From Porphyra umbilicalis (taxonomy: Eukaryota > Rhodophyta > Bangiophyceae > Bangiales > Bangiaceae), in assembly GCA_002049455.2 (NCBI GenBank), contig KV919190.1:1-52394 (forward strand): DNA of 52,394 bases, read 5' to 3'. This document shows positions 6,220-38,954 of this stretch, one piece after another; the first letter of the stretch is position 1, and every line of letters starts with the position of its first letter. The position numbers were made by a program, and so were the translations under genes. The notes under the pieces were generated by a model, which saw nothing but the letters and a program-made list of their open reading frames with translations, did not search any database and was not told the origin of the DNA.

Positions 6220-6235
6220 GTGAAGTACAAGCCTA

Positions 6236-6268
6236 CAGGCCAGGGTGTTTTCGCGTACGCGCTTTCAG
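6236..6268 (+). repeat. Short dispersed repeat shared with 51504-51535
   Basis: AGGCCAGGGTGTTTTCGCG followed by xACGCGCxTTCAG is found here and at 51504-51535. The AGGCCAGGG core also ends every RepT copy, so these may be footprints or end fragments of the same transposon group. Confidence 0.5.
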
Positions 6269-6690
6269 TTTCACCTAAATGTTCAAGACCCGGTGGACCC
6301 CGTTTGGTGCCACCGCGCTCTTTGTATACCCGCTACAGTACCGCGGCGCCGCGCCCCGAAACCGCCCCGCGCCACCCGGCCGGAGCGCGACGCCCTCCCC
6401 CCCCTCCCCCCCCACGCTTGGCCATCCCCCCTTGCGCACCCCCCGCCCCCCCTGGACCATGCTTAGTCGCCTCCCCCTGCTCCTCTTTGTCGGCAGCGTC
6501 CTCCCCATCCGACCTGCACGGGCGGCGGCCGCCCCCACGTGCCCCGCCCCGTCGCCCGCCACCGCGCCGTGGCGGCGCCACGCGGCGGGCGTTGTTGGGT
6601 TCACCCCTTTCTTCCCCCCCCCCCCCCACCCTCCTCCATCCCCCCCCCCCCCAAACGGCACGCCGCCCGCACCGCCACGCGGCGGCGAGC

Positions 6691-7227: not shown

Positions 7228-8329
7228 CGAGGTGTGGTTTTACCTCTTTAGCCGCCGCCTGTTTGACGTGTGGGTGGCCGCCGCCGAGGCGGCGTTTGGG
7301 GGGCGGGGGGGGGGGGGGGGGTGCTCGCTGATTTGGGGGGGGGGGGGGGGGGAGCCCCGTCGGGGTGGGGGGGGGCGACCGGGGCGGGAGCCCAGTCTCT
7401 GACTAGCGCCGGCGGTGGGTGGGTGGGGGGTGGGTGGGGGGGGGGGGGGGATGCGCGGCCGCTGCCACGCCGTGCGCCGCCCCCACCCACCGCTGGCGCT
7501 CGCGGCGACCGCTGCGCGGCGCCGCCGACGCGGCGGCGGCGTGGCGGGCGCGCCCCGCGTTGGCGTGGCGCCGTTGGCGCCGCCGCCGATCTGCCGCGGC
7601 CCGCCCCCGCCCACGGGGCGCGGCCGCCCCGTGTCCGCCGCCGCCTGCCGCCCGGCGGCGTGGCGTGTGGCCGCCGGCTGCGCCTCGGCGACGGGCGGTT
7701 GTGGGGTGGGGGCGGCGCCCGCGGACGGTGTGGCGGCCGCGCATTGCGCCGCGCGTCGGGTGTGCGCGTGTGGGGGGGGGGGGGGGGGGGGAAGGGGACG
7801 CCCCGTCGGGTGCCGGCGCCCCGCCCGCGCGTGTCTGGATGGACGGCAAACGCGGCGGTGTGGGTCTTTGCGTGGCGCTGCGGGGCGCCAGCCCGACGCG
7901 GCCGACGCGGGCGGGGGTCGGGTGTGCGCCGCCCGAGGCCGGCGGCCCGTGTCCATGGCCGCGCACGCCGCGGGGGGGTGTCGACGGGTGGGCGCCGGTG
8001 GACGGCCGGCGCCGCCGCTGCGGGGCGCTCACGCCGCACGGTGGGGGGGGGGGGGGCTCACCCGGGTCGGCGTTGCTGGTGTACATACGCCTGCGAGCAC
8101 GGGCGATGCGGGCGCGGGCTTGATTGGCCGCCGCGCGTGCGCGGGCTTGCTGTGACGGCCTCCCCGTCGGCGGCAGGGCGTGCACCCGCCGCCGCCGCTC
8201 GTGGCGGGGCCGCGCCCGCATCGGTGGGGGCGCCGGCAGACGCCCGGCGGTGGGGGTGCGCCTGCCTCAGAGTGTTTTTGCGTTGCGTTTGCTCTCGCCG
8301 ACCCGTCCGCGCGCGGCGCGCGCCCTCGC
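7228..8329. other. Low-complexity G-rich region, no supported gene
   Basis: Long G runs (for example 7308-7321, 7337-7352, 7440-7450, 7773-7790 and 8042-8054) and GCC/GGC-rich sequence keep several frames open on both strands. Their Gly/Ala/Arg or Pro/Arg/Ala products are what composition alone gives. G runs of this kind can form quadruplexes and are error-prone in sequencing. The first part may contain the displaced 3' end of the macrodomain gene. Confidence 0.5.
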
Positions 8330-11370: not shown

Positions 11371-11687
11371 CGGCCCACCCGTTGTGCCAATCAACCTTTG
11401 CCATCCGGAGTAAAAACGCCACGTGTTCCGACAGCCGTATAGAAGCTTCGCTAATAATTGAGCTGAGTTGATCCATTGTCGGTGTGCCGCTCGGCGTGTT
11501 CGACCTTGCGACGCCGAGCCGTGCTGGCTGACGCGCGCCACGCCCCGCTCGGCAGCTCCGTCTCCTCTTGCCAGCGACATCCACCTACACCCCGAACTCC
11601 TTGTTCCTTCCCTTTACTGTCCCCTTTTACCCTGAGTTTTTTTTTGCCCGGTTTCGGTGCTGTTCCTCCCCCCGCCACGAGGGCACG
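11371..11687 (+). promoter_or_regulatory. Upstream region of BUD31 homologue
   Basis: The interval between the RepT end and the BUD31 ATG becomes strongly pyrimidine-rich after 11560 (CTCCTTGTTCCTTCCCTTTA and a T run at 11637-11644), typical of a 5' leader. A hairpin GCTCGGCGTG...GACGCCGAGC lies at 11491-11520. No clear TATA box is seen. Confidence 0.4.
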
Positions 11688-12659
11688 ATGGCGTTGCGCC
11701 ACAAGCTCAAGCGCCGCCGCGCCCCTGCTGGCATTGAGGTCGTGGCCGACGCGCTCGAGCGGTACGAGCGCCTCATGCGAGACGCTGTCGCCGAGTCCAC
11801 CGACGGCAAAACCCGCGCCGAAACGACCTGGCGCGTCACCAAAATTCACTGGCAGCGCAACCGCCACGTCTACGACCTCTACCACGACGCCAAAGCCATC
11901 AGCCGGGAGCTCTACGACTGGCTGGCAAGGGAGCGCGTCGTCGACGGCCCGCTGCTGGCCAAGTGGCGCAAGCCGGGCTACGAGCGCCTCTGCTCCCTCG
12001 GCGTCATTGCCCGCGGTGGCACGGCGTTTGGGACGACCGGCGTGTGCCGCGTTCCGCTGGCGCAGCGGCGGGGCGCCATCACGCCCAACGTGGCAACCGG
12101 CTGCGTCAGCTGCGCGTCGGGGGATGGAGGGCCCATCTGGTGGGACGACCCGGTGCCCGAAGTCGTTGCGCGGCAGTACGCGGCGCTGCACGGGGAGGCG
12201 GCGCTTGCCGCGTCGTTGCGGGACGGACCGCCGGTGGCAGCGGGGGGGCTTGGGGGGGCGGCCGTGGCTGGGCAGGAAGAGGCGGCGGCGGGTGGGGGGG
12301 ACCGAGGAGTGTCGGCGCAAGAACCGTCGGCCCACCCGGCAGTGGCGACGTCCCCGGCGGCCGAGGATGAAGCGGTGGGCAGTGGGGAGCTAAATACAAG
12401 GGGACGGGGAGGGCAAGACGCCAAGACGGCCGAGGCGGTGGGTGGCCTCGATGCGGTCGGCGCGACGGAAGACGTTCCTGGAGGGACTCGGCGTGACGCA
12501 GCGCACGCCAGCTCGGTGTCGGCGGACACGCCCGCCAGCGGCGACGGTGCCGAGGACCCGGCACCCGCTGGTACCGAGCCGCCACTGAAGAGGGCCAAGG
12601 CTGTCGACGCGTCGCCCCTGGACGTGGGCGGGGCGGAAACGGGTGGATGCGACGGATGA
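11688..12659 (+). CDS. BUD31: BUD31/G10-family splicing factor with long C-terminal extension
   Basis: BUD31 (G10) is a small nuclear zinc protein of the activated spliceosome. From ATG 11688, residues 15-145 follow the family: IEVVADALERYERLMRDA, then KAISRELYDWL (69-79), LLAKWRKPGYERLC (89-102) and FGTTGVCRVP (114-123). The ATG is chosen because the family N-terminus follows it directly and the in-frame sequence upstream is pyrimidine-rich leader. Usual family members are about 144 residues with a dense set of zinc cysteines; this protein is 323 residues. Only C102, C120, C139 and C142 stand where cysteines are expected, and the usual CCxxC and C-terminal CGCRGC clusters are missing, so metal binding may be altered. 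Residues from about 150 are acidic, Gly/Ala-rich and probably disordered. It is followed 542 bp later by another + strand gene. Family assignment is confident; activity is inferred. Confidence 0.88.
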   Translation: MALRHKLKRRRAPAGIEVVADALERYERLMRDAVAESTDGKTRAETTWRVTKIHWQRNRHVYDLYHDAKAISRELYDWLARERVVDGPLLAKWRKPGYERLCSLGVIARGGTAFGTTGVCRVPLAQRRGAITPNVATGCVSCASGDGGPIWWDDPVPEVVARQYAALHGEAALAASLRDGPPVAAGGLGGAAVAGQEEAAAGGGDRGVSAQEPSAHPAVATSPAAEDEAVGSGELNTRGRGGQDAKTAEAVGGLDAVGATEDVPGGTRRDAAHASSVSADTPASGDGAEDPAPAGTEPPLKRAKAVDASPLDVGGAETGGCDG

Positions 12660-13201
12660 ACCGGGGGTACGGGTGCTGTTTGTTGTATTCTTTTTCCTCA
12701 CTTGTCTCTGTTTCGTTTTTCTATCAAGCTTGCTGCCTTCGTCTTGTCACTCCCGCTTGTGTTCGGCGCATGTTCTCCGTTTCTTTCTTGTCTCTGGCGC
12801 TCTGTTCCACTCTGAAAGAAGGGGGCCGCACAGGGCCACTCAGAGGTCAGGGTCAGCAATTAGGGGCTGCAAGCACCGCTCAATTGAGCAAAGCGCGCCA
12901 CGCGTAATCGTAGGTCGACGTCGGTCCAGTTCGGATCTCGTCCCTTGCCGCTTCGTCGGCGAGTCGCCTACGAGGCGTCGCCGCGGCGTCGGTCACGTTG
13001 GATCCAGCTCCCGAAACCCTACCACCCCATTCCGCTCTTTCCCTCTACTCTTCTGTCTTGCTCCTGCCCATTCCTCCCCTTGTGGATGCCCTCGTCTCTT
13101 TTCACTCTGCCCACGAGTGTTCCGCCCACCTGTGTCGCCCGCCTGTGTGTCAACTCGCTGGCTTCGCGACAGGACTTTGCCCCCCGACCCCCCCTCTCAC
13201 C
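12660..13201 (+). other. Intergenic/UTR stretch between two + strand genes
   Basis: The first 120 bp are T-rich (TTTGTTGTATTCTTTTTCCT), as in a 3' UTR. The last 180 bp are C/T-rich and lead to TCACCATGAAC, the presumed start of the next gene. No ORF with independent support is present. Confidence 0.4.
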
Positions 13202-14161
13202 ATGAACCCGGCGGCGCCGCGGATGGTGGCTGCTTCCTTTGCTTCCACATCCTCTGTCTATGTCTCCTCTTCCCCAAGCCGGGAATGTGCCGTCGCTGGA
13301 GCTGCCGACGTCCGCTCCATTCCCGCCTTTGTGGTCGCCCCAGGCGCGGCGCTGCGGCGGCGTGCCCCCCCCGCCATCCGCCATTCCCTGCGGCGACACG
13401 AGGCGTTGCCACTGAGGCCGGCACCCGCCGTCCTGCGGGCAGCGGCGGAACCACCCGCCGCCGCTGCCGCCAGTGAGGGCCCCGCCGCGGTGGACGAGGA
13501 CGCCCCTCCATCCCCCGAAGCTGCACCGTCCGCCACCTCTGACTTTGACCTCGGCCCCGGCCAGGTCGCCGTCCGCTTCATCAACACCCCCACCGGTGAA
13601 GACGTATTGGCGGTGGCCAATCCGGGCGAGCGCCTGCTGTCGGTCGGTGACGGCGTCGGCTTGACCATCCCCCGCTCCTGTGTGTCGGGCCTCTGCGGCA
13701 GCTGCACGTGCGAGCTCCAAGACCCCTCGTGGGTGCCCGAAGACGATGACGCGGACGGCGACGGCGACGGCGGGCGGCCTGGGTGGCAAACCATCCGCGC
13801 GTGCAGCACCGAGGTGATGCTCCTCGACGGCTGCACCGAGATGGTCGTTGACGTGGTGCGGATGCGCACAACGGGGCGGCGGGAGCGGGACCCCTTTTCG
13901 CGCTTTGACGGGCTCGACACGGGCTACGAGGCGGGGGCGGCGCCCAAGGTGGCGGGCATCCGGCGTGACGTGTCGTGCGCGCACTGTGCGGGGGTTGGCC
14001 GCCACACCTGCTACGCCTGCGAGGGGACTGGGAGGGAGGAGGTGGACCCGTCGGGCGTGGGCGGGGGGGCGGGGTCCGCACAGCCCTGCGCCGTGTGCAT
14101 GGGGCTCAAGATCCTCCGCTGTGCGTTTTGCCAGGGCAAAGGCTCTCGGATGGGCCGGTGA
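13202..14161 (+). CDS. Plastid-type [2Fe-2S] ferredoxin-like domain fused to BSD2/DnaJ-type CxxC zinc domain
   Basis: The ATG at 13202 sits in TCACCATGA, and the first about 85 residues are Ala/Ser/Arg/Val-rich with few acids, as in a plastid transit peptide. An acidic linker follows. Residues 120-222 form a ferredoxin-like domain: CVSGLCGSC (C160, C165, C168) plus C201 give the C-x4-C-x2-C...C set that ligates a [2Fe-2S] cluster. Residues 257-319 contain four CxxC motifs (C259/262, C270/273, C296/299, C307/310), with CAGVG, CEGTG and CQGKG as in the DnaJ cysteine-rich domain and in BSD2, a Rubisco-assembly chaperone. The order and spacing argue for one intact 319-residue protein. A job coupling electron transfer or redox sensing to plastid protein assembly is inference. 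The gene lies downstream of BUD31 on the same strand with no frameshift. Confidence 0.85.
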   Translation: MNPAAPRMVAASFASTSSVYVSSSPSRECAVAGAADVRSIPAFVVAPGAALRRRAPPAIRHSLRRHEALPLRPAPAVLRAAAEPPAAAAASEGPAAVDEDAPPSPEAAPSATSDFDLGPGQVAVRFINTPTGEDVLAVANPGERLLSVGDGVGLTIPRSCVSGLCGSCTCELQDPSWVPEDDDADGDGDGGRPGWQTIRACSTEVMLLDGCTEMVVDVVRMRTTGRRERDPFSRFDGLDTGYEAGAAPKVAGIRRDVSCAHCAGVGRHTCYACEGTGREEVDPSGVGGGAGSAQPCAVCMGLKILRCAFCQGKGSRMGR

Positions 14162-17600: not shown

Positions 17601-17896
17601 CTACAGCAGCTCGTTCACAGCAAAGCAGTACTCGGTCTCGGGAAGTGCCGCTGTCTCAGTTGAGTTGCGCTCCCCATCTCGCACTTGCGCCAACCAACTA
17701 TACACTCTCCCTGCACAGTCCACCCGGGCGGCCAAAGTCGGGGGACGTCCAGCCGACACAATAACATCGTCACTCCCCCCCTACAAAGATGTCCTCTGCA
17801 CCCGGCGCGTCATCGTCGCCACCGCCCGACGGTTCAGCATCCAACGGCGCCCCAGGGATGTTGCTCAGCAGAGCCGCTATGTTCGCCGACGCCCCG
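17601..17896 (-). pseudogene. 3' end of the pogo transposase reading frame, beyond the Ty3 insertion
   Basis: If the Ty3 element and one copy of CCCCG are ignored, the minus frame that ends at 28302 continues here without a shift for about 97 more codons, to TAG at 17603-17601. It is rich in Asp, Gly, Ala and Pro. Frame continuity across a 10.4-kb insertion supports this being the tail of the same gene, or of a frame that was still open when the retrotransposon arrived. An in-frame TAA at 28575-28573 precedes it, so it may have been 3' UTR by then. Confidence 0.55.
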
Positions 17897-18289
17897 TGTG
17901 GTATTAATAACGTTAGTTAAATTACCAGTGTACTGAGACCGACCGTAGCCAAGCAATAAAGCGAGTTCTATCGCCGTCGCGGCGAGGAAGAAGACCTTTT
18001 GTTGAAGGGCATCCGATGGGGAGCCGGGTGGTGCCCACGACGGCGACCCCGGACCCACGGTGGTTTAATACAAACAACGGCACTGGTCGATCGACCATCC
18101 GATCAAGCGATCGTAATGAGTGCCGGCAGACAGATAAGACAGGCAAGCAAACAAGCAATAAAAAATAAACAATGCACAAGTAACCCCCCAAAGGGCGTGC
18201 CACAAGCCGAGTCTTACAAATCCGTGGATTCAGCCAGTCAAGGGGGCTACTCGTGGCTAATTGCCAATTGGGAGCAGAGATATGCTACA
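17897..18289 (-). repeat. Left LTR (3' LTR of the minus-strand Ty3 element)
   Basis: 393 bp, TGTGGTATTA...TATGCTACA on the + strand, i.e. TGTAGCATA...ACCACA in element sense. Virtually identical to 27909-28301; the differences I count are G/A, A/G and two adjacent to GAGTC. AATAAA occurs on the + strand twice. Purine-rich GGAGG precedes its start in element sense (18290-18296). Confidence 0.97.
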
Positions 18290-18993: not shown

Positions 18994-19079
18994 GTGCGCC
19001 GCCGCAAGGTGGCACACCGCGAGGTGGTGGGCCCGGTGAGTGTGGGTTTGTGCGGGGTCGGGGGGGCGGCACGCACGGC

Positions 19080-19432
19080 GGCAAGGGCGGCAAGCCCGGC
19101 GGCGACAGCGGCAAGGGCGGCAAGCGCTGCGGCAAGCGCGGCAAGCCCGGCGGCGACGGAGACAAGGGCGGCAAGCGCTGCGGCAAGCGCGGCAAGCGCG
19201 GCAAGCCCGGCGGGGACGGCGGCAAGGGCGGCAAGCGCTGCGGCAAGCGCGGCAAGCGCGGCAAGCCCGGCGGCGACGGCGGCAAGGGCGGCAAGCGCTG
19301 CGGCAAGCGCGGCAAGCGCGGCAAGCCCGGCGGCGACGGCGGCAAGGGCGGCAAGCGCTGCGGCAAGGGCGGCAAGCGCGGCAAGCCCGGCGGCGTCGGC
19401 GGCAAGGGCGCCAAGCCCGGCGGCGACATCCA
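19080..19432 (+). repeat. 60-bp tandem repeat array
   Basis: Nearly exact 60-bp units, built from GGCAAGCGCGGCAAGCCCGG and GGCGACGGCGGCAAGGG blocks, repeat from about 19130 to 19432, with a shorter partial unit before. All frames remain open; in the frame of the antisense gene they encode 20-residue Ala/Ser/Arg repeats. The array may extend that protein's N-terminus if translation starts at 18994. Confidence 0.9.
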
Positions 19433-19461: not shown

Positions 19462-21420
19462 ATGGCGGATTCGGCCGCGATGGCGGTGGACGTCGGAGTT
19501 GCCGGTGGCGGTGAGGCCATAGACGGGGCGCATGCCGCCGCGGGGGGCCATCCGGAAGTGGATTGCTCCGCGGACCCGGAGGTCTTGCGCCAGTTTCTGC
19601 CTCGCGGCTCGTACTACGTGCACGCGAACCCTGTGGAGGTGGTTGATGGGGTCCCGCGAGTCACCGACAACCTTCTGTACGAGATGTGCGTACGCAACCG
19701 CGCTCGTGCGCACACGCGCCGTGTCTACGCGCACTACGAGGCGTTGCCCGACTTCATCGACGTGATGGCGCAAGTCGGGTTGCCGGACCACGCGGGCGAC
19801 CGCGTGGCCGAGGTCCTTGGGGACCCGTACTTTGGGAACCAGGGTCCTCAGCGTCGTGTATACGAGGTGATGTCGTTTTGCAACGAGGTCGTGCGTTACC
19901 AATTGCCCTTGCACCCGTTCCACCGCTTGGTGTACGCCAATTCGCTCCTGTTCCCTGTGAAGGGTACAGAGACGATCGAGGCGGCGGCCAACTCGTTTTG
20001 CCGCTTGCTGCGCAACTGGCCGAAGGCCGTCTTCCTCAAGCGGGCTCTCGCCGAGGACCTTTCGGTCCCGTTCGGGCACGACTCCGGTCTGGAGCCGTAC
20101 CTCAAGCAGCTCGCGCTGGTGAAGCACGGGGAGAACGACAACGTCGAGGATGACCGCAGTCCGCGGGTCACCGGGTTGCCGAACCCTTTTCGGCTGCCGA
20201 TGTTCCCATCCGACCACCGTCGGGCCGCTGACACGCGCTTCTTTCGCGGTCGCGAGTTGATGCCCACCGCGTGGGCGGCTGCATTTCTCCGTGCGCCACG
20301 GGAGTTCGACTTGTCCCGTTGGCTTCCGCCTATCCCGGCGTGGGAGTCCCACACGGGGTTGTGGGTGGCGACCCCCGTAGTGGTGTCGTACCTGGCGGAT
20401 GCGTTGCGCAACGCCTACAGCTCCGTCTGGCAGGAGGTGTACTCCGAGTACTACTGCAACTTAGTTGCTGCGTGGGTTCACACCCTGCAGGAGGACAAGC
20501 TCCTCGTCCATGTGGACACGAAGACGCTTCGTCATTTCGACGCGTTGGATACGTCCAAGTTGAAGGACGCGCCCGACGGCGAAGCCAAGTACGTCTTGTA
20601 CGGCAAGATGCGTCAAGCCGTGACGGCGTTTCCCTGGCTGGAGGTCCTTAAAGACGTCGTCTGGCGCGACCGCGACTCCGGGGAAGCCCGTCAGGTGCGG
20701 GTCACGGTCGACCCGACCAAGGAGTACGGCTTTTGCCTTCGCCACCCTTGTGTCGATTTCGAGTGGGCGTTGGACCCGAACGCGCCACTCTCGATGGCTC
20801 GAATCACTTCGAACCATCCCGGGGTGTGGCGTCGTGGTCGTCGGACCTGGGCTCACGCCGTTGGCGACGCCCGAGAGGGCCGCTACCGCCGGCGTTCACC
20901 GCGGCGCGATCGCTCGCCATCTCCGCCCCGGGCGGTGGATGCCACTTGGCCGACCCGCGCGTCTTCCACCGCGGCGGTTGCCTTGTTTGGGTCGGCGCGC
21001 GCGCGCGATGTACACGCACGCGCGCCCCGCGGGGCAGCCTTGTCGGCGGTGGCTAGCGCCTGGGTCGAGCAGATCGCAGGCTTGCGTACCGCTGTTGAGC
21101 GCGCGGACGGACGGGGTGTCGAGTCGGCTTTGTCCATTATTGGACAGGCCGTGGCTCGCGCCGTTGACGGCGAGGCCAACTACGGGCGCTTCGCCCAGCA
21201 CCTCGAGGCTATCCAGCCAGAGGAGGAGGCCACGCCGGCGCGCTTAAACGCGCAGAGCATCCTTGGTCGTCGGACCCACGAGGGCGGAGGCTCGTCGACG
21301 GGGGTTCCGCACTCGGCGCGCAACACGCGTGCGCGTAGTGTCTCGCAGGAGTCGGCGGCCAGTGTTGGCGCGAGCCGGTATTCCCGCCGGGACTCGCGTC
21401 GTCGTGACGACGAGAAGTAG
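19462..21420 (+). CDS. Antisense accessory protein of the Ty3 element (uncharacterised family)
   Basis: Intact 652-residue frame opposite to gag-pol, between integrase and 3' LTR. The ATG at 19462 (CGCGATGGC) is preferred because sequence before it encodes only tandem Ala/Ser/Arg repeats; an upstream in-frame ATG at 18994 is possible. Residues 60-440 form an apparently globular part, with NEVVR (141-145), NWPKA (185-189), TGL (298-300), FPW (390-392) and EYGF (421-424), all conserved in order in the protein at 1-1305. After about 470 the chain is Arg/Ser-rich (RRRSPRRDRSPSPP-like, as in SR proteins), then helical, and ends in another Arg/Ser stretch, suggesting a nucleic-acid-binding or nuclear role (inference). 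No RT, integrase, envelope, signal-peptide or membrane features are seen. It is the only long undamaged gene in the element, while gag-pol carries three stops. Function unknown. Confidence 0.85.
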   Translation: MADSAAMAVDVGVAGGGEAIDGAHAAAGGHPEVDCSADPEVLRQFLPRGSYYVHANPVEVVDGVPRVTDNLLYEMCVRNRARAHTRRVYAHYEALPDFIDVMAQVGLPDHAGDRVAEVLGDPYFGNQGPQRRVYEVMSFCNEVVRYQLPLHPFHRLVYANSLLFPVKGTETIEAAANSFCRLLRNWPKAVFLKRALAEDLSVPFGHDSGLEPYLKQLALVKHGENDNVEDDRSPRVTGLPNPFRLPMFPSDHRRAADTRFFRGRELMPTAWAAAFLRAPREFDLSRWLPPIPAWESHTGLWVATPVVVSYLADALRNAYSSVWQEVYSEYYCNLVAAWVHTLQEDKLLVHVDTKTLRHFDALDTSKLKDAPDGEAKYVLYGKMRQAVTAFPWLEVLKDVVWRDRDSGEARQVRVTVDPTKEYGFCLRHPCVDFEWALDPNAPLSMARITSNHPGVWRRGRRTWAHAVGDAREGRYRRRSPRRDRSPSPPRAVDATWPTRASSTAAVALFGSARARDVHARAPRGAALSAVASAWVEQIAGLRTAVERADGRGVESALSIIGQAVARAVDGEANYGRFAQHLEAIQPEEEATPARLNAQSILGRRTHEGGGSSTGVPHSARNTRARSVSQESAASVGASRYSRRDSRRRDDEK

Positions 21421-21562: not shown

Positions 21563-23845
21563 TCAGTTTTTCTGTTTATCGTCATAGCGATGAAGGAAGT
21601 GGCAGGCCATCATGGCCCATGTTGTGGGACTTGTATCCCTTGAGTCTGCTGATAAAAGCACTTCGTACTCGAGACATGCACGTATGGCAGTAGCGTACCA
21701 ACTGGTGTTGGTCCATTGTGGTATTACTACGGTTGCTTCCTCTGTGGTTGTTACCAAGCGTCGAAGGACTGAGTCCAAGTGTTGCACCGGAGGTACCAGA
21801 AACCCGTTGGGGAGCACTGGTACAGGGGGATCGCTCCCGATCAGTGTCGCCTGTGCGGATTTCGGCCACACATATGTGTACGGGCCGTAAACACAGTTCA
21901 GCCGAGAGAAATGCCGCAAGGCAAGTTGGGGATCATACGCAAAGTTGCGCGTCATGGACGGCAGAGTGGACTTGAGCCACGCAACAGGAATTACTTCCTT
22001 AATTGCAACGTCTGTACTTGACTCTGTCCACGCGACGTCGGCATGGATAACTCCGTCACCGGTAACATGGACATGTTGGATAGTGGGTATCCACGTGGAG
22101 TCTATGACGATGTTGGCCACGGTTGTGAGCCCGACCTGTCGGCGACTTCGTCGCGTTGGCGTTTGCCACTCGTACCCCGGTACATGCTTCTTCTTCTGTC
22201 GAAGGAAACGCACCACCAGGTTGCGAGGGAGGTTCTCCAGGGGTTCCCAGGTGTCGTCCTTCGACCCGTAGTCGAACCAGCGCACCTTAGCGCTATAGCT
22301 GTCACCCGTCTGGCGTAAGCCTAGGAGTTTGTCGATCACATACTCATCGGCAGTTGCCGGGGGTGACTTGCGTTGGTCTAGACCATCTAGCAGGGGGTGT
22401 GAGACCGTGTCCGTCGTCGTTGGACGAGAAGCTGGGGTGACATGGTCACTGCTGACGCGTTTCTCCTCGCCGTCGATGTAAATGACAAACGTGGAGGCGT
22501 CCGCGTCTGCGTCAATGACCACGAAGGGTCCAATGGCTTTGCTTTTCAGCTTGTTTTGCCGATCTTGGTTGGTCGTGTATACGTAGTCGCCGATCTTGAC
22601 GTCCGCATTGCGGGTTGCGACCCGATGGTCGAAGTTACGTTTGTAACGTTGTTGCGTCTTACGCAAGGCCTCGACCACGATGGGGATCTGCTTGCGCAGG
22701 CGGGCCATGAACTCGCGTTTGCGAGCTAGGGGTGACCCATCATTGAGCGTTCCCTTATTGGTAAGCGGAGTGCCCGGGGGCAAGTTGCGAACCGTGAGGT
22801 TGGGGATCCGCCTTGCGATAACGAGCTCAAATGGGGCGATGCCCGTCGACCGATGTGGTTGGCTATTATACGCCATGGTGATTACCGGGAGTAGCTGATC
22901 CCATCGTGATGGGTCGTCGGCGACGTAGTGTCGCAGCTGAGTAGCCATGTTACGGTTGTACCGTTCGACTTGCCCATTGGTTTGGGGATGATACGCCGTG
23001 GTGCGAACCGTTTCAATGCGAAGCATCTTCATCACAGCGATGAAGAAGTTCGACATGAACTGGGGCCCTTGGTCCGATAGGATCCCGTCCGGTGGCCCGT
23101 AGGCTGACACCCACGCGTCCATGATGGCTGACGCCACGGACATGGCCGTGATTCGCCGCAAGGCGACGCACTTGGTGAGCTTGGCGAAGCGGTCGGTGAT
23201 AACCAAGATGAAGCGTTTGCCCTTCTTGGAGGCCGGGATGGGCCCAAAGATGTCAACGGACAGCTCCGTGAGGGGCTCGGTAGCCTGAGACAGGGTCAAG
23301 GGCGTGGTGTGTCGCCGCAAGGCGAGGCGATTTTGCGCACACGTTGTGCATTTGGTGATGGTCGAATGAATATCCGTCACCATTGAAGGCCAGTAGTATG
23401 CCTTACGCATTGTGTAATACATCCGGTTCATACCAGGATGGGCGGCCACGATTGTGTGGTGCTCGAGGGTCAACACGCGTTCGCGTAGAGACTTTGGAAT
23501 AACCAATTGTTTGCCGTAAGGCGCACGGCGGTACAGGGCGTGATGCTCATCGCGGAAGAAGGCCTTGGCCGTTCCGCGCTCCACGCGAGTGGACATCTCG
23601 ACGCAGAAGTCGTCTGTTTGTTGTGCTTCGACAACATCGTCGAACTCCACCGGTTCCGGTGCGTCGGTACCCGTGTACCTCCCCGTTCTTAAGCCGTTGG
23701 CCGTCTCGGCCAATGCCAGACAAGGTATATCATCATGGATATCTCCTGGCGGCGCCACCGTTGAGGCGCGCGACATGAAGTCGGGCAGGTGGTGAGATGC
23801 ACCTGGTTTATAAACCATATCGAATGTGTATTCGGAGAGGCGAAG
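21563..23845 (-). pseudogene. pol: Ty3 pol: integrase with chromodomain and C-terminal extension
   Basis: Continues in frame after the TGA at 23848-23846. Counting from the ATG at 23818: zinc-binding H121, H127, C157 and C160; catalytic D189 (SVDIFGP), D249 (LSDQGPQF) and E285 (NGQVERYNR). A chromodomain is at about 491-543 (EYVIDKLLGLRQ, KVRWFDYGSKDDTWEPLENL), which in chromoviruses directs integration to marked chromatin. A further 200 residues follow, with LVPPVQHLDSVLRRL and TVVIPQWTN, unusual for the family. The frame itself is uninterrupted to TAA/stop at 21563. It ends 143 bp from the end of the convergent antisense gene. Confidence 0.93.
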
Positions 23846-26031
23846 TCACCATCGCATAAAGCGTCCGCTTGAGTCGGTCGTGCTGTAGATCCAGCTAAGT
23901 GCTTGGTGATCCGTTCGGATGAGGAACCGTTGTCCGTCAAGGAAGTGCCTCAACTTGAGGACAGCCCACACGACGCCGAGGCATTCTCGCTCCGTGGTGG
24001 AGTAGTTTTGCTCTGCAGCAGTGAGTCCTCGGCTCCAATACCCGACAGGGTGAAGCAGTCCGCCCGGCTCGTCTTGGAGGAGGGTACAACCAACTTGGTC
24101 GGCGCATGCGTCCACGTCAACGACGAGCATCCGATTGGCCTTCGGCAAGGCAAGTACCGGTGGGCACAACAGTGCGTTGCGAAGGTCCTCGAAGGCGGCG
24201 ATAGCCACGTCCGTCGGTGGTGGTAAATCCGGTGGGATCTCGGCCCTATTCAGGGCGTTCAGGGGCTTTGCTCGTTTGGCAAAGTCTTTGACAAACCGTC
24301 GATAGACGTTGCACATGCCCAAGAAGCTTTTCAGCTGGGTCTTTGTGGTTGGGAACTTGGCATGCTTCAGAGCATCCACGTTCTTGTTATGCACGTGCAG
24401 TTGCCCGGGGCGGACAATGTGTCCTAGGTACTCGACCTCATCGGAGAACCACGTGCACTTTTCCAAGTTGAGGGTGATCCCGGCTTCGCGGAGGCGGTGA
24501 AGAACCGTGTCAACGTCTTTGACGTGTTGTTCCGCGTTTGCGGAGAAGATGATGACATCGTCGAAGTAGACAAGGCATATCTGCCACTTCAAGCCCAAGA
24601 GGATAATATCCAACGCGCGCTGAAAGGTAGCGGGCGCGTTCGTCAAGCCGAAAGGCATGGATAACCAGTGGTATATACCGCAGTGCGTCGTGAACGCCGT
24701 CTTCTCTTGGTCGTCCTTGCGTAGGGGTACTTGCCAGTACCCCGCGGTGCAGTCGAGAGACGTGAACATCTGGGCATCTCCCAAGGAGTCGAGGCAGTCC
24801 TCCATCCGAGGCAAGGGATAAGCATCCTTCTTGGTGATGTTGTTTATCCGACGATAGTCGACACAGAATCGGGTTTTGCCGTTCTTCTTTGGTACAATTA
24901 CCACGGGGCTTGCCCAAGCACTATGGCTAGGGGCAATGACGTTGAGCTTCAACATCTTGTTGATCTGATCAGCGATGATCTGCCGTTTGAATGGCCCGGT
25001 GCGGTAGGGTTGGGCCCGTATGGGCAGAGCGTCGAAAGGAGTGACGATGGCGTGCTCCGTAGCACGGCTGACGCCAAGGGTTCCATCCCACATAGACGAA
25101 TGCGTCTTAAGCATGTCACGAATCTGCTTGTGCAGGTACTCGGGTGTCTCACTGAGGTCGAGGTCCTCGAGTGGGTCACGACTCGCGTCGTCCGATGGGT
25201 TATCGGTTCCACCCTCCGGGGTGTTTTCATCCAAGACGGCGGAAAGCATCGGCCCTTGGTAGGGTTCTTCGAACCCCAAGGTTGAGTTCTTGCGAACAAT
25301 GACTTGGTCCTTGCCGAAGTCGCATAACTTAACCAGGAATGGTTCGTCCGGTTTGACGATGGCGATGCCGCGGGCGACTGCCATGGACTTGTGTTGGCAC
25401 AACCGAATGTTCGGTGTGATGGTAACCATACCAGGGGTGTCGCACGTGGCCATGATCCGCTCCTCCTTGTGTCCGTCGACACGCACCTGTTCGCAGGCTC
25501 GAACCCGAGCGGGTTTATCTTGCCAGTGGCGGTCCCACGCGCTGTCGTTAAGACAAGCTAAGATCGGCGTTGGCCGAGGTTGTTCTTCCGTGCAGCGCAC
25601 GTGCTCTTGCCAGACGATCTTGCGCGAGCGCGGCAAGATGCCCTCGATGTTTTGTTCAATGAACTCGGTGCCAAGAATGCACGGGACTGACAAGTTGTCG
25701 GAAACGAGGACTCGGTCAAATAGACGCACACCTCCGGTTTCTACATACAGATGTATGGCATACTTCGTCACAAGACGATTGTTGTTTGCATCTCGGATGC
25801 GCGGAAGCGTGGTCAGCTCTTCGGCGTAAGCCATCCAGTTCTAAGGGAGAACACTAGTTCGCACTATGTTCACCCCGGCGCCCGTGTCTAAGACATGGCG
25901 GCAACTTCGCATTACGCGCAGGCATGGGCCTAATGTGGCTGCGATCTCGTAGTGCCGAAGGGCACGACGTAAGAGTCTTGTCACCGTACGCTTTCGCGTT
26001 CCGCCGGGCAACCCCAAGTCGGGCACCCGGC
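23846..26031 (-). pseudogene. pol: Ty3 pol: aspartic protease, reverse transcriptase, RNase H, with two in-frame stops
   Basis: Lies in the -1 frame relative to gag. The protease motif DTGAG is at 25888-25874, followed after 12 codons by TAG (25840-25838) and then, in the same frame, a 662-codon stretch. Counting from 25834: protease C-terminal ILGTEF (53-58); RT with SLDCTAGY (D361), FGLTNAPATFQ and YFDDV (423-427); RNase H with DVDACADQVG, TERECLGVVWA and RTDHQALSW. It ends at TGA (23848-23846) in the middle of the conserved segment joining RNase H to integrase (RFMRW, then LRLSEY). All catalytic residues I can check are present; only stop codons disable it. GAAAAAC just before the gag TAG (26043-26037) is a candidate slip site for the -1 shift. 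Confidence 0.93.
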
Positions 26032-27678
26032 CTAGACGTTTTTCGAGTCGTCCACGGCGTCGGCCGGAGGCTCGACCTCGTCTTCCTCGACGTTACCGTC
26101 GGCAAGGGCATGAACGCCGATAGGCGGTTGCCGACGCTCGCGAGGGCGATAAGGCTGGGCACACTGTGCGGCGAAGTGCCCCGGCTTGTTACAGTTGTAA
26201 CAGATGTCAGCCCGATTGGCTTGAGGGACGGCGGCCCGAGGGGGCGACGGGGTGCGAACCGGTGTGAACGGTCGTTCCGTCGTCGTCCGCTGGTCTTGTG
26301 TCGCGTAAGCGACTTTGATCGCCGTTGGGCGGGTCATCTTGAGTTGCAAACGCAACTTGTTCGTACCGTCCCAATACATCTGGGCAGTGGCGACCGTCTC
26401 GGACAGGGTTCGGTCGGGGAACTGGTCGTTCAGTACCCGGACGTGCGCTTGCACAAGGTCCGAAAGACCAGTGATGAAGACGTCCTTAACGTCTTGGATG
26501 TCGAATAAATCGTTTAGGAGGTCGCATTGCGTTTCCACGCGATGACCAAAGGCCGTGGGCGCCTCGTTGTCTTGTTGCTTCATCGTAATGATGTCTTGAT
26601 AGGCGTTAGCCATAGTTGCGTGTGTCGCATACTTCGAAAGAAGCCAGTTGACGGCATCTCCGTAGGTACGGATGGCGTAACGCTTACGTCCGAGGGTGCT
26701 GTTAAGCCCGCCGGAGAAGGCCATCTTGGCGTTGCCGGCTAGTCGAAAGACCATAAGCGGAAGGGATTGACCGTGCGTCAGCCCAGCCGCGTCGCATGCG
26801 CGGCGAAAGGTCTTCAAGAACGTGAAGATGCCCTAGGGCAGGGCTCCCGTGAATGGCTGTTGCCCATGGAACGCTCCGTCCAAACGTTTGTTAAGACGGT
26901 GCGACCGCTGTGCCTCTTTAGGCGTATACGTCAGTTGACGGCGGCTCAGGAAGTACTTCCTGTAGTCCAGGAGTGTCTTGAAGCGGCTATTAGCCGGGCG
27001 GATCACCTTGATCCTATCGGCCTTCTCAAGTCGCTCCTTCCGTTTGGTGGGGGGCGCGGGGCGCTTGCGCGCGGCCGCGTCCGACTCGCTCGAGCTGTCG
27101 CTCGGCGAGGACCCACTTGAGGGCGACGGCGGGTGTGGGGGCCCGTGGCCATCGTCCGAAGAGGACGTGTCCGTCGCGTTGGGGTTGTCGTCGTCTGACG
27201 ACGTCGGGCTTGACCCAGAAGCGGACTCGTCGGAAGATGAGGAAAGCGCGGCGTTAGCCGGAGCGTCCTTGCGGACGGACTTGTCCTTAATCACCTTGCT
27301 CGTCTTCTTGACGTCCTTGGTCTTGTCGCCCGACCGGCGGCGAGACTTAGCCACACGGCGTTCCTCCTCATGGGAGTCGACCTTGCGCAAGGCCTCGACG
27401 TCGTCGACCAACTTGTCATTGGCTCGCGCCAGAGACTCGTTAGTCTGTTCTTGGGCCGTTAGGCGTCGCTGAAGTGCTTCAACGGCCGCCTTCAGGCTCT
27501 CCACCACCTGCATCTGCCCAGAGGCGGCTTGATCCGCAGGGATGGGAGGAGTTGGAGCACCGTCCGTTGGGGCATCGGAAGCGGCAGGAGTGCGTTGTCC
27601 CCCGCCCGGCGGCCGGTAGCCAGATGGCAACTTGCCGTCTCTGGCTCGCTGAGTGCCGCCGGTACCACCAGTAGACAT
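26032..27678 (-). pseudogene. gag: Ty3 Gag with CCHC zinc knuckle, interrupted by TAG
   Basis: Start ATG 27678 (CCCAATATG). The N-terminal half is Ser/Asp/Lys-rich, with a likely coiled coil (EALQRRLTAQEQTNESLARA region). A TAG at 26835-26833 lies just before GIFTFLKTFRRACD, the start of the recognisable retrotransposon Gag fold, and the frame then runs to TAG at 26034-26032. Near the C-terminus CYNCNKPGHFAAQC is a classical CX2CX4HX4C RNA-binding knuckle. Apart from the internal stop the frame is intact. The internal stop could be decay or a readthrough codon; other genomic copies would decide. Confidence 0.92.
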
Positions 27679-27908: not shown

Positions 27909-28301
27909 TGTGGTATTAATAACGTTAGTTAAATTACCAGTGTACTGAGACCGACCGTAGCCAAGCAATAAAGCGAGTTCTATCGCCGTCGCGGCGAGGA
28001 AGAAGACCTTTTGTTGAAGGGCATCCGATGGGGAGCCGGGTGGTGCCCACGACGGCGACCCCGGACCCACGGTGATTTAATACAAACAACGGCACTGGTC
28101 GATCGACCATCCGATCAAGCGATCGTAATGAGTGCCGGCAGACAGATAAGACAGGCAAGCAAACAAGCAATAAAAAATAAACAATGCACAAGTAGCCCCC
28201 CAAAGGGCGTGCCACAAGCCGAGTCACACAAATCCGTGGATTCAGCCAGTCAAGGGGGCTACTCGTGGCTAATTGCCAATTGGGAGCAGAGATATGCTAC
28301 A
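27909..28301 (-). repeat. Right LTR (5' LTR of the minus-strand Ty3 element)
   Basis: 393 bp, matching the left LTR at all but about 4 positions and flanked on the right by the second copy of CCCCG (28302-28306). It would contain the promoter for gag-pol. Confidence 0.97.
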
Positions 28302-29964
28302 CCCCGCCTGGAGTATCGTCGACTGTTGTATCAGCCGCGGGGTCATCTAGCGCGACCACTGCCATGGGCATAGTCGCGGTGCCTGCCGCCCCAGCCCGAC
28401 GCAGCGCTGATGCCGCCCCGCCCGCGCTGTAAACGCCGTCAGTGGTGAGATCTGTGGTGGCCACCACGCTCGTGGGCGCAAGGCCACCGCCTTCGTGCAT
28501 AGCAAGCCCCTCATTTCCCGGCGCGGGCGCCAAAGGAACCAGGACGGCGTCGCACAGCCAGGGATCATCCCCTTAAGGCGGGGCAGCGCCAGAATCACCC
28601 GATTCGCCCTCGGGAAAGCCAACCTCGGCTCGCACAAGCGCAGACTGTGCCAGTGAAAGCACTTCGGCGCTCAGCCAATACCGAGCCGCCTGCGCCTTGG
28701 TGACGCGCCCAACCGCCAAGTTGATCAGTCTTATCGCATCCAGCACATGAGGAAGCTTGCCATAGGCCGATCCGCTCGCACCGCGCTTGCGATTGGCTGT
28801 TTCATGCAGCCGGGCTTGTCTATGAGGTACTGCTGCCATCGTCTGCTGCAGCATCTCCGTCCGTGCATGCCGCTTATTGGAACAAATGAAACCCCTGTCC
28901 AATGGTTGTTGCAGCGACGTCACCCCCGCAGGTAAGAACACAAACGTAACACCCGCCAGGCGCACAAGCTTCCCGTGGGCGCTTCACTTGTCTAGCAGCA
29001 GGACCCACGGCCCGCTGGACCTGGCGGTTTTCGCCGGGTACCAGATGAGTGTCAGCCAGTGCTCAAACAGAAAGCTGACCATCCACGCATTGGACTGGGC
29101 CTTGTACAGGCTGCGCTCCTCAGGAGTAGCGTCGGCAAAGCACACGGGGACCGCCGACTTACCAATAAAAAATGGGGGAAGGATGTGGCAGCCCGTTGCG
29201 TTACAGCAAACAGCAAACGTTATCCGCTCCTTATTCTTCATACCCTTGGTCCCGCGTGTCGCTCTGTGGGACTCTTGAGGTGACAAGTAGGTGCCATTAG
29301 GCAGGCACTGGTACATGAATCCAGATTCGTCCTCGTTGTACACGTTGCGTGGATGAAATGCCGACAGCTGCGGTCGCACCCGCTCCATTTCTGCAGCCAC
29401 CGCCTCCTCGTCCACCGACCCAGCCTCCCCGTGAAGACGCACAAAACCCGCAAACCCGCTGCGGTCCAGCCACCGCGTCACCCACCCGGTGCTGCCAGCG
29501 AAATGTGTCACGCCCATGCTGCCAGCTAGCTCTTTGGCGCGCCTTTTCAGGATACCAAACGTCAGCGGTAGACGCAGCTCTCGTAGGCGGGTTGCATAGG
29601 AGCTCAAGGCCGCGTCCAGGGCGGGGAACCGCCCCGGCGTCAGCCGTGCCCGTCCCGCCATGTGTTTGTTGCCCTCGATGGCACGAAGTAAAGCAGCCTT
29701 GTTCTTCCAAATGGTCCGGAAGGTCTTGACGCTGACGACCCAATTGGCTGCCACCGCCGGAAGGTGCGCGCCAGGTGCCGTGAGGTCATGACAAATCAAC
29801 GCCATGGTCGCCAAGGAGATGATCTTCCTTGTTCGTTGGGACGGGGCGTCTCGCTCCCCGGCGCTCGCGGCCGCGTCTGGAGCGCTCGGCCCGCCTGATG
29901 AAAAAACGTGACCAAACGCACAGGCAGTGTCGTCAGTAGGTTTGGTGCCAAAGAATCGTGCCAT
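28302..29964 (-). pseudogene. Pogo/Tigger-like DDE_1 transposase with CENP-B-type DNA-binding domain, interrupted
   Basis: ATG 29964 (GCCATGGCACG on the minus strand: ATGGCACGATTC). Residues 45-95 look like the first (psq-type) helix-turn-helix. Residues 104-180 look like the CENP-B/Tc5-type one (LTFGILKRRAKELA, WVTRWLDRSGF). The DDE_1 core follows: YNEDESGF (D212), LLLDK (D325), VTSLQQPLDRGFI and HVLDAIRLINLAVGRVT. A TGA at 28986-28984 falls two residues after the second catalytic Asp; the frame then resumes at once with SAHGKLVRLAG, so a single nonsense change separates the catalytic parts. TAA at 28575-28573 may be the original end, although the frame is open again up to the Ty3 insertion. 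Family identity is firm; the copy should be inactive. Confidence 0.92.
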
Positions 29965-30759: not shown

Positions 30760-31684
30760 TAGTCGGCCCCAACGCTGTCCGTGTTCTCATTGGCCAATCA
30801 AATCCACATATGTATCCATTTGTATCGGATTAGAGCAAAACGTGTTCGGGCACGCCCCTGACCACTTTCGAAACTTTATAGCAAAGTTCTGCAATCAATA
30901 GCAATGGCGTGGCCCTCGGCACGCGAGAGCCGACCAACAAATATCGTTCACTGGGACTGGTCAACAGAGCAGAGGTTTGGTGTCCCGTGATCAAATCATC
31001 GAGAGGGTCCTTGTGCGCCACGCGGGTTGCGACTGGGCGGATCATCGGCTGAGCTGGCCAGCCCGCCACCGTCACAGAGCGTTCGGAGAGGGGGAGGGTG
31101 ATCGGCCGGCCAGATCGGGGCGCCTGGGGCGGGTGGTGGTCCGACACCGCCCACAGCGTGTTGAGAGAGGGGTGGGGGGGGTCGGCGGGGTCGAGGCCCC
31201 AGGTGCGTCCCCCACGCAACGTTTCTAAGGGCATCAGTTGACCATCGTCGCGCATGAAGGCTTTTGTGCGGGGGGGGGGGGGTCGGTCCGGCTGCCCGGC
31301 CTGCCGCGGCGCGCCACGCACCGGACCCGTCGACGTCACGCCCACGGTTTCGACACGAGCGGCCCGCATCACCACCCGCGTCCCCGCTCCCGTCCGTCGC
31401 CCTCTTCCTGCATGATCTCTTGGCCTCGTCCGTTGCCCCTGTCACCGCCCTCGGTTTGAGAAGCTTGACCCGCGCACCATCTCCTCTTGTGCATGTCCCC
31501 CCCACCTGCACTCTCATTTTTATTTCTACCGCACCACGTCTAGCTCCCCACGGCTGCGACAACCATCATTCTTTTCGGCCACTCACCGCGACGCTTGCCG
31601 CCACCGGCGTCCGCGTGTGGCCAGCACCGTGGACGTCGCCCCGGTGCCCTCGCCACAAGCTGTTTGGCGCGTTTGTCCGGGGGC
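30760..31684 (+). other. Region before the Harbinger transposase, probably its leader and the element's left end
   Basis: The + strand becomes C/T-rich from 31330 to the transposase ATG. A run of 12 G lies at 31270-31281. I searched for GG-rich ends with 3-bp duplications matching the far side (36.6-38.5 kb) and found none I trust, so the Harbinger boundaries are undetermined. Confidence 0.4.
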
Positions 31685-33198
31685 ATGGAGCCCGACGAAG
31701 ACGAGCCGTTCCCGATTGCCGTGCTACTGTCTGAGGACGACGGCGCGGACATTTGCGCCGCTGTGCAGGCGCATGTGGCGGCGGTAGTAGCGCTGCGGAT
31801 GCGTGTGAGTGCGTGGTGTGTCAGCCGACGTGGCCGCTACAGTAGCTCCCTTCCTGGACGTCGGCCAAACAAGCAGCGGGACTTCGATGACGGGCTGAAC
31901 AACATTGTGCGAGATTACTTTGGAGTCTATGGGCGAGACCCTGTCTACAATGAGCACGACTTTGACACGCGTTTCCACGTTCCGCGTGCTGTGTTCCGGC
32001 GCGTCTATTCGGAGGTCAAGGACACCCCCTTCTTCCGGCGGCGTATCAACGCTACGGGCCGACCGCAGGCGCACCCTCTACAAAAGTTGGTTGCTGCCTT
32101 TCGCTGGCTCGCGTATGGGGAGGCGGCAGACCGCGCCGACGAGTACGTGCGGCTTTCCCGTTCAACAATCCTCCTTTCGGTCAAGTGTTTGGTGGTATGC
32201 ATCGTGTCTAAATGGGAGTCAACCAACCTGCAGCGGCCCAACTACGCGGAGCTGAAGACGATCCTGGACCGCAACGCGGAGCGTGGCTTCCCCGGGTGCA
32301 TGGGCTCGCTTGATTGCAGTCACTGGGCGTGGCACCAGTGTCCCAGAGGTATGGCGGGCAGCTACCAGACCCGAAAGGGCTCGCGCTGCATTGTTATTGA
32401 GGCTGTGTGCGACGAGGACCTGCGGATTTGGCACCTGTTTGTTGGCGAACCTGGGAGCCTCAATGACATCAACGTGATGCACTAGTCCCCCCTCTACCTC
32501 GATGTGACGGCAGGCCGGTGGCCGCCTCGCAACAAGTCCTAAACGCTGAAAGGAACAAGTCGCACGCTGCCGTACTACCTGGTGGATGGCATTTACCCGC
32601 GATATGCCTTCCTCATGTCCTCGCACCCCATGCCCTCCACTGAGGAGCAAATGGTCTTTAACCGCCTGCAGGAGGAGGTCCGCAAGGACGTGGAGCGCCT
32701 TTTTGGTGTCCTGAAGCAACGCTTCCACATCGCGCTCCACCCTGGGCGCTGTCGGTCGGTTAAGATGCTGGTCCTAACCTTCAAGGCGATCTGTATACTG
32801 CACAACATGTGTGTTGAGAGCCGCCGCGAGGGCCTTTTCAGATGCTGCAGATGCGCAGAGGGACCTAACGGTGGGGGGTTGCTGATGCTGTGGATGGTCA
32901 CGACGAGGGATCTGGGAGTGAGGACGTCAACGGACCTGATGGTGGGCCAGCTGGCTGTGGCTGCAGTGGACATGGTGGTGAGGCGGACGTCGGGGCGGGT
33001 GCTGCCGCTGGGGGAGCTGCGCCTGGCGGCGCACACGCCGGCGCCAACGCGCCCCTCCACATCAACCCTGTCGAGCAGCCGCCAGCGGGCGGCATGGCCG
33101 CCGTGTTTAACGCCTGGGGCGAGACTCGCAATGTTTCTGAGCACGAACAACTTCGTGCTGACATCACCGCACATGTGTGGAAAGACCGCGGTGACTGA
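31685..33198 (+). pseudogene. PIF/Harbinger DDE transposase, with two nonsense codons and a late frameshift
   Basis: From ATG 31685 the frame carries the DDE_Tnp_4-type core: GCMGSLDCSHWAWHQCP (first Asp), FVGEPGSLNDINVMH (second Asp), YYLVDGIYPRYAFL and VRKDVERLFGVLKQRF (catalytic Glu), then AICILHNM. TAG at 32483-32485 directly follows INVMH and TAA lies at 32539-32541; both are in frame with what follows. After about 32840 the coding signal moves to another frame, ending FNAWGETRNVSEHEQLRADI...WKDRGD with TGA at 33196-33198, the normal C-terminal pattern (LRxDLxxHxW). The original protein would be about 500 residues, rather longer than the usual 350-450. Plant-type Harbingers pair this enzyme with a Myb-like protein, present here convergently at 34.5-36.5 kb. 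Confidence 0.92.
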
Positions 33199-33236
33199 TT
33201 GGCCCCGTACCTTTCTTAGAGCGACAGCAGGTGACA

Positions 33237-34358
33237 TACAATGGTTTTTTTTCCCGTTGGGCAGGGTTTTTTTCTTACTTTATTTTGTTGTCTATTGCAC
33301 GTGAAACAGAGAGCCAAAGTCGACAGCGCCGCGGTCAGAACTGGCGTGAACAGCCGAGCGCGCGGCTGGAGCTCAACTTTGGCAGGGGCCTGCGGGGACA
33401 CCCCGTTGCCCTCTCCGCCAGCGCGGCCGCCAAGCCGCCGCGTTCACAGTGTCGACGCCGCGTCGTCGCCTCGTCTCCCGCCGCGTGGCCACCAGCGGCA
33501 GGCCCGCCGCACGCATCGCGCCATGCGCGATACGGAGAGACAGCCGCCGGTCAGAGGCGGCCTCGCCAGCGCCGGCGCAACGCCGCGCCCGGGCGCGTCC
33601 GCGCGGCGTGCCGCCCTCTGCCGCTCGCGCGTGCTCCCGCCCCGTTCGCCGCCGTCTGCCGCGCGCGCGTGCTTGCTCCCTGTCCGATGCCCGTGCCGCA
33701 TGCCAGTGCTCCCTCCTGGCCCGCCGCACTGGCCCGCGCGCGTGCTCCCTCGCGGCGCGCCGCCCTGTTCCGCGCGCGCGCGCTCCCTCGCGGTGCGCCG
33801 CCATCCGCCGCACACGTGTGCTCTCTCCTGGTCCGCCAGCCCCTGCCGCATGCACGTGCTCCCTCGCAGTGCGGAGCCCAAATGCACTCGCGCGCGCTCC
33901 CTGGCGGTGCGCCTTCTCGTTTTGCGCGTGCTGTGGGCGTGCGCCCGCCACCCCGCGCGTTGGCTCCTGCTGTGGCCACCCCCCATTCCCGCCCGGCACT
34001 GCCCCCGGCTTTCTCGCCCTGGTATACCCGCGCGTGCGAGAGGGGTGCTGTTTTTTTGTTTGGGTGGGGGTGTGGGGGATGGGTGCTGGGGGAAGAAGTC
34101 TGGCGGGTAGGGGGGACGAACAGTTAGTTGTGATAGGGGGCGGTATTGTTTGATGGCGACGAGTGGTGCGATTGTGTCGCCAAGCCCTTTGCTGCAGACG
34201 CAGGTGGCGCCTGTTTTGTGTGTTCCCTGGTGTAGCTGATATACCAGCTTCCGCCACGCCGGACAAGAGAGTGGAAAACTGGTGAAAGGGACGAGGACTG
34301 CGAAGTGGGTAGGAAAAAAAGAACCCTGCCGAGTGGGGGAAAAAAACCCATTGCTACA
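33237..34358. repeat. Inverted T-run repeat flanking the gap between the convergent Harbinger genes
   Basis: CAATGGTTTTTTTTCCCGTT...GCAGGGTTTTTTTC (about 33237-33275) is the inverse of GAACCCTGCCGAGTGGGGGA...CCCATTG (about 34318-34358). Each lies just past the 3' end of one of the two convergent genes. They could be paired 3'-end signals or the ends of a 1.1-kb insert; no target duplication is obvious. Confidence 0.65.
33590..33960. repeat. Degenerate minisatellite
   Basis: Blocks of about 40-60 bp containing CGCGCGTGCTCCCTCGCGG(T)GCGCCG recur seven or eight times with many substitutions. They keep several frames open on both strands (Arg/Ala/His-rich products), which I do not regard as genes. 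Confidence 0.65.
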
Positions 34359-38950: not shown

Positions 38951-38954
38951 CTCA

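Follow-up and report, generated by a model that had tools for sequence, protein, structure and literature searches.

The window analysed here is the whole of a contig of 52,394 nucleotides from the red alga Porphyra umbilicalis (C430 in our numbering), and the genome searched with it comprises 83.8 Mb in 665 contigs at 63% GC. Within the window lies a Ty3/gypsy chromodomain element of about 10.4 kb in minus orientation, with its 5' end at 28301 and its 3' end at 17897. This element carries a long gene, here called aORF1, on the strand opposite to gag and pol. A relative of a second type, aORF2, lies at the very start of the contig, and a third lineage, aORF3, is found on other contigs. The features that matter for the argument are these.

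17892-17896 and 28302-28306, no strand: target-site duplication CCCCG, 5 bp, on the outer flank of each LTR
17897-18289, minus strand: 3' LTR, 393 bp, a repeat of 27909-28301 with 4 mismatches
19075-19427, no strand: tandem array of 30/60-bp units (12.1 copies at a 30-bp period or 5.5 at 60 bp, by Tandem Repeats Finder)
19462-21420, plus strand: aORF1, antisense accessory gene of 652 codons, ATG at 19462, stop TAG at 21418-21420
19549-20760, plus strand: conserved core of aORF1, residues 30-433, defined by alignment and common to aORF1, aORF2 and aORF3
20761-20997, plus strand: basic linker, residues 434-512 (R+K 0.20 in residues 431-520 vs 0.11 before)
20998-21417, plus strand: C-terminal domain and tail, residues 513-652, common to aORF1 and aORF2
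21563-25834, minus strand: pol with protease, RT, RNase H, integrase and chromodomain, by Pfam
26032-27678, minus strand: gag with a CCHC zinc knuckle (Pfam zf-CCHC above cut-off)
27909-28301, minus strand: 5' LTR, 393 bp, repeat partner of 17897-18289
559-1347, minus strand: second member, aORF2 type, first piece, 71% identical to the copy at C70:277311 over 249 residues
84-560, minus strand: second member, second piece in another frame, with 75% identity to that copy in residues 250-408

The host element is a chromovirus. RVT_1, RT_RNaseH, rve and Chromo all exceed their Pfam cut-offs in pol, the chromodomain follows RT, RNase H and integrase in that order, and the LTRs are flanked by a 5-bp duplication; Retrotrans_gag reaches E 0.0018 in gag, which is below its cut-off. 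Membership of the OTA/Tat group, whose elements have a second, archaeal-type RNase H and no chromodomain, does not fit, since the chromodomain is present and Pfam at E up to 1 found no further RNase H family in the two pol pieces. A frame check of this copy finds a single in-frame stop in gag and a single one in pol. Directly outside the 5' LTR is a pogo/Tc5-type transposase fragment (28984-29964, minus strand; DDE_1 E 4.8e-13, HTH_Tnp_Tc5 E 1.6e-8).

The rest of the window mixes protein-coding sequences with other repeats. The former include a Macro domain protein (6220-7227, plus strand; Pfam Macro E 2.6e-25), a BUD31 splicing-factor gene at 11568-12659, which marks the genome as eukaryotic, and a ferredoxin-type 2Fe-2S domain followed by a cysteine-rich tail (12998-14161, plus strand; Fer2 E 7.1e-8). 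A Harbinger-like transposase lies in two frames at 31595-33304 (plus strand; Plant_tran E 1.1e-24 and 8.4e-19), and near it is a weak NAM-associated match (34549-35169, minus strand). Large inverted repeats with a fold-back-like form occupy 3235-4500 and 38951-40272, with arms of 341 and 283 nt (94-98%) and of 399 nt (90%). A recent duplication at 41544-45518 has a spacing of 1,881 bp and is identical or nearly so over at least 300 nt, with further relatives at 8.5-11.4 kb.

A preliminary description of this DNA reported an intact frame of 652 residues, antisense, between integrase and the 3' LTR. Our coordinates, the LTRs and the Pfam matches all agree with this. The gene lies between the end of pol at 21563 and the LTR at 17897-18289, and 142 bp lie between the facing stops of aORF1 and pol, so that the two genes are arranged tail-to-tail.

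The protein can be divided by comparison with aORF2. The cores of the two align over some 400 residues with E about 1e-17, and the C-terminal domains, of about 90 residues, align with an hhalign probability of 89.7 and E 1.8e-6, where the maximum among 20 shuffles was 0.66. Between these parts aORF1 has its short basic linker, and aORF2 has in that place a long, coiled-coil-like, RS-rich stretch in which RS or SR pairs are in excess (47 vs a shuffle mean of 28.1). An Arg/Ser-rich tail had been claimed for aORF1 as well. Its tail is indeed very basic, but its 8 RS dipeptides are no excess over a shuffle mean of 9.0. The core of the antisense proteins has a pI of 6.0 and 7.0 and the remainder 11.5 and 11.6. 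There is no segment of membrane strength, the best 19-residue hydropathy being 1.08, 1.56 and 1.19 in aORF1, aORF2 and aORF3.

No known domain was recognised in this protein. Pfam gave no family for the aORF1 protein of the window with E allowed up to 1, and for 33 members with the limit set at 0.1 it gave none either; a weak FERM_F1 match to aORF2 was dropped at E 0.14, and a PDB sequence search of the antisense protein returned nothing above cut-off. The earlier statement that the protein lacks a known motif thus holds, and the possibility raised with it, a captured fragment of a known host gene, finds no match in Pfam or PDB. AlphaFold gave a mean pLDDT of 32.9 for aORF1 (33-row alignment) and 40.5 for aORF2 (24-row alignment). 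These models are unusable, so nucleic-acid binding has no support from any fold.

aORF1 is a family of many copies. In a six-frame genome search it occurs at 68 sites or more, all of 90-100% identity among the best 68 of 480 candidates, and 46 of these 68 have no internal stop; since scoring was confined to the best candidates, such genome counts are minimum values. A protein database search found 34 relatives at 57-91% identity, which originate from public metagenome collections. A wider profile search, with 7,996 candidates scored, yielded 178 proteins, and the best 120 of the 178 are all at least 54% identical to the query.

Selection on the protein was measured from 34 aligned copies placed on a tree. 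Three of an initial 37 were left out, L034 as the same copy as L017, and L025 and L036 as partial. Substitutions were placed by parsimony and the expectation was taken from the same mutation types. Internal branches approximate the replicating lineage and terminal branches mostly approximate decay after insertion. On internal branches the aORF1 frame has 67 nonsynonymous changes against 151.6 expected and 139 synonymous changes against 54.4 expected, a dN/dS of 0.17, with 1 stop. On terminal branches it has 453 and 235, a dN/dS of 0.78, with 16 stops, and the two sets of changes differ at Fisher p 3e-17. The other five frames over the gene give internal values from 0.34 to 3.66; the 0.34 belongs to the mirror frame on the opposite strand, which has 12 stops. 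By region the internal dN/dS is 0.56 in residues 1-30, 0.12 in the core, 0.28 in the linker and 0.25 in the C-terminal part.

The element's own integrase provides the control, taken as its last 450 codons (2 of the 20 loci used covered only 573 bp). At the same 20 loci the internal dN/dS is 0.12 for aORF1 vs 0.17 for integrase, and the terminal dN/dS is 0.45, not 1, for aORF1 vs 0.52 for integrase. The aORF1 protein is kept about as strictly as integrase. It had been proposed that this protein is under selection, with a dN/dS near 1 as the result that would speak against it; the 0.17 on the internal branches of 34 copies bears the proposal out, and we regard it as nearly certain that aORF1 is an accessory gene whose protein is selected.

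The second member at the start of the contig had been used to argue the same point. The words NEVVR, WPxA, TGL, FPW and EYGF are indeed common to both, in the same order, with 92 vs 93 residues from TGL to FPW and 31 vs 30 from FPW to EYGF. However, NEVVR and WPxA lie in the frame at 559-1347 and TGL, FPW and EYGF in that at 84-560, so this copy is frameshifted. The resemblance goes beyond chance: the best match of this second member among copies of the aORF family has E 4.3e-11, and its match to aORF1 of the window has E 2.7e-8. In the longer relative on C70, residues 29-398 align with aORF copies at E values as low as 7.9e-18. Compared with the relative at C70:277311, the window copy has a dN/dS of 0.30 in the first piece and 0.18 in the second, and two alternative frames of the first piece give 1.0 and 1.8; the C-terminal part of aORF2 gives 0.28. 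Both copies have been under constraint.

The preliminary description also placed this second member antisense beside a putative LTR. It is homologous and its C70 relative is antisense, but the window copy is broken, and no repeat that could be its LTR partner was found in window positions 1-8000 or on C70. The contig ends at base 1, next to the second member, and pol is not seen beside it in the window. C70 supplies the missing context. It contains two gypsy copies placed head-on; over 4.2 kb they have 80% identity, and their integrase is 45-56% and their RT 61-69% identical to the window element over the better parts and 29-40% elsewhere. The right copy has pol on the minus strand and the long copy of aORF2 on the plus strand, in which a single stop follows codon 408. 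In the left copy pol is on the plus strand and only the C-terminal third of aORF2 is present, on the minus strand, with one stop inside the C-terminal domain. Both aORF2 frames end about 240-245 bp from integrase, tail-to-tail with it. An antisense tail-to-tail site is therefore common to diverged lineages, and the inference drawn earlier from the two window copies was right, though the window alone was not sufficient for it.

aORF3 is harder to place. Its three copies, about 670-750 residues long, lie on contigs C78, C116 and C3 (L048 5360-7600, minus strand; L050 446-2695, plus strand; and L049). The core matches aORF2 at E 2.5e-18, and homology of the tail with the C-terminal domain is not supported (hhalign 0.43 and 0.36). 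The 14.4 and 14.0 kb around two copies and the 4 kb around the third contain no match to gypsy gag, RT or integrase. A crude dN/dS is 0.73, from 28 synonymous and 57 nonsynonymous changes. The gene sits inside a multi-copy repeat, of which two copies have 8.1 kb in common at 96%, and a 1.6-kb piece neighbouring it occurs at nine places. One diverged copy of the repeat, on C4, has no aORF3 region in the stretch fetched. We do not accept this repeat as a clean mobile element: the borders of the copies differ, and on one contig two copies are separated by about 8.5 kb. aORF3 may be the source of the antisense gene, or it may be an escaped copy.

Two further observations bear on function. The first is the tandem array. 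All 20 gene-bearing copies compared have it at this position, where it ends some 30-50 bp before the ATG, and its unit varies from 9 to 111 bp across copies, as does its length. The reading frame of the array relative to the ATG differs between copies (the window vs L032), so the array lies outside the protein. Neither of the two aORF2 copies has such an array.

The second is that many elements lack the gene. Among the best 60 of 1,705 integrase candidates, 35 are followed within 1.5 kb by an aORF match, opposite in strand to the adjacent integrase in all 35, and 25 have none among the matches listed. Three gene-less copies were inspected, on C339, C391 and C24 (the last truncated by the end of its stretch). 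Between array and integrase they retain only codons 47-88 or so, and their arrays are longer, about 0.6-0.8 kb in all three, with units that differ from those of gene-bearing copies; the region at L063 1800-4100 belongs to this subfamily and has such long arrays of a differing unit. A 241-bp query across the deletion junction matches at full length at all 40 places scored, the best of 465 candidates. These include 20 of the 25 gene-less integrase copies, the other five being on C526, C423, C196, C36 and C130. In 12 of the 20 the integrase has no stop or a single TGA. We rejected the idea that this TGA marks a dead pol, since in C339 it shortens the end of the frame by only four codons. One deletion founded a large gene-less subfamily that still spread. 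The expectation that the frame should recur at the same place in other elements is thus borne out in 35 of 60 integrase copies and in the lineage with 45-56% identical integrase, but at least 20 of the remaining 25 have lost most of it.

Because this subfamily spread, aORF1 is not needed in cis. Gene-less copies that spread beside gene-bearing ones imply that the protein acts in trans or is dispensable, and a constraint equal to that on integrase speaks against plain dispensability.

It is important to realize that antisense extra ORFs between pol and the 3' LTR, termed aORF-3R or eORF-3'R, are already known, for example gene23 of maize Grande, rice RIRE2, ORF4 of Silene Retand, PvRetro13 and brtn of Botrytis Boty (PMC7264820, PMC6317226, PMC8365987). 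aORF1 resembles them in its position between pol and the 3' LTR, its reverse orientation, its length (652 codons where 250 or more are asked for), its many copies and its neighbouring tandem repeats, which large plant elements have too. It is found in 35 of 60 scored copies and is conserved like the element (0.12 vs 0.17 for integrase), with one subfamily having lost it. It differs in having no Pfam domain, where plant examples sometimes hold pfam04195 or pfam10536; these and pfam03078, the Retand, Ogre and Athila domains, are absent from the Pfam results given above for the window's aORF1 and the 33 members. It also differs in its chromodomain host, since one plant survey assigns most gypsy eORFs to the non-chromovirus OTA group (PMC6317226). 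Beyond what the plant cases offer, it has purifying selection measured against integrase and a shared deletion of the gene. Judged by sequence, the aORF proteins form a new family, and a chromodomain element carries them; among the open-access papers listed by our searches none describes a comparable gene in a gypsy element of an alga. Retroviral accessory regulators are, like aORF1, encoded by accessory genes near the 3' LTR (PMC7264820). HBZ of HTLV-1 is one of these, and its gene is antisense as well. aORF1 has no detectable sequence relation to them and no bZIP or other Pfam domain.

Any account of function has to start from the frame, its place and strand, the homology across lineages and the selection in the replicating lineage, all of which the analysis shows. 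The explanation we prefer, tentatively and at somewhat short of an even chance, is that aORF1 is an accessory gene of a chromodomain Ty3/gypsy element encoding a trans-acting nuclear factor that would help its own element to be expressed or to evade silencing. That the core is neutral, the linker basic and a membrane segment missing suggests a protein that binds nucleic acid in the nucleus, a role also proposed for Grande gene23 (PMC7264820). On this explanation a promoter of its own, antisense and located between the 3' LTR and the ATG, would drive transcription of aORF1. The protein, with its neutral core, basic linker and small C-terminal domain, would enter the nucleus, bind nucleic acid of its own element and help expression or silencing escape, and its action in trans would let gene-less copies with LTRs, pol and tandem array still spread. 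We count against it the lack of arrays in both aORF2 copies, the lack of an RS excess in aORF1, the terminal dN/dS of 0.45 and the mirror-frame value of 0.34, and the spread of the gene-less lineage of C339, C391 and C24 also fits a dispensable gene.

A more specific proposal takes the VANC proteins as its model, which are anti-silencing proteins of the Arabidopsis VANDAL elements with fast-diverging noncoding tandem repeats as targets (PMC5735166, PMC10398659). The aORF1 protein would bind the adjacent array and clear silent marks from all copies that carry one, gene-less copies included. Both systems pair an accessory protein of a mobile element with variable noncoding tandem repeats and possible action in trans, but VANDALs are DNA transposons and aORF1 is in an LTR retrotransposon. 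The array that adjoins the gene in 20 of 20 copies, varies in unit and length and is longer in all three gene-less copies argues for this proposal. The aORF2 lineage without arrays, the differing units of gene-bearing and gene-less copies and the arrays common in large plant elements that have no such factor (PMC6317226) argue against it, and we consider it unlikely. That aORF1 is a sequence-specific anti-silencing or activating protein recognising the array in trans, and that the gene-deleted subfamily with its lengthened array exploits it, is rather unlikely as well.

The remaining explanations fare worse. The gene could be a captured foreign one, its core derived from a gene or another mobile element, that now rides as a passenger with little benefit. 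Capture may be its origin: aORF3 has the core and no gypsy gag, RT or integrase in the stretches examined, and the amplification of gene-less copies also suits a passenger. A passenger would hardly be constrained like integrase, however, or kept antisense in both the aORF1 and aORF2 lineages, and we think this quite unlikely. A structural or particle protein, either a second nucleocapsid or something envelope-like, seems to us more doubtful still. The layout of core, basic linker and helical-looking C-terminal domain does resemble that of some nucleocapsids. Yet the element already has a gag with a zinc knuckle, antisense expression would uncouple the dose from gag-pol, and gene-less copies spread. 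Envelope-like genes are in sense and encode a transmembrane protein, whereas aORF1 is antisense, with a hydropathy maximum of 1.08, and the maxima of aORF2 and aORF3 are below membrane strength too. That only the antisense RNA matters, through double-stranded RNA control, with the frame as a by-product, is very improbable and already disfavoured. Such RNA roles are known in other elements (PMC7264820), but amino-acid selection acts here in one frame and the protein is conserved across lineages whose DNA cannot be aligned.

Long known from LTR retrotransposons, antisense extra ORFs have had no function assigned to them. One plant survey describes them as so heterogeneous that any role was questioned (PMC6317226). 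The aORF family shows integrase-strength selection in the replicating lineage and has persisted in diverged chromodomain elements. Gene-bearing and gene-less copies occur in one genome, with the array as a candidate target, and this makes the old question of function testable. If aORF1 does recognise the array, an LTR retrotransposon would have its own VANC-like system, and antisense extra ORFs would gain a function.
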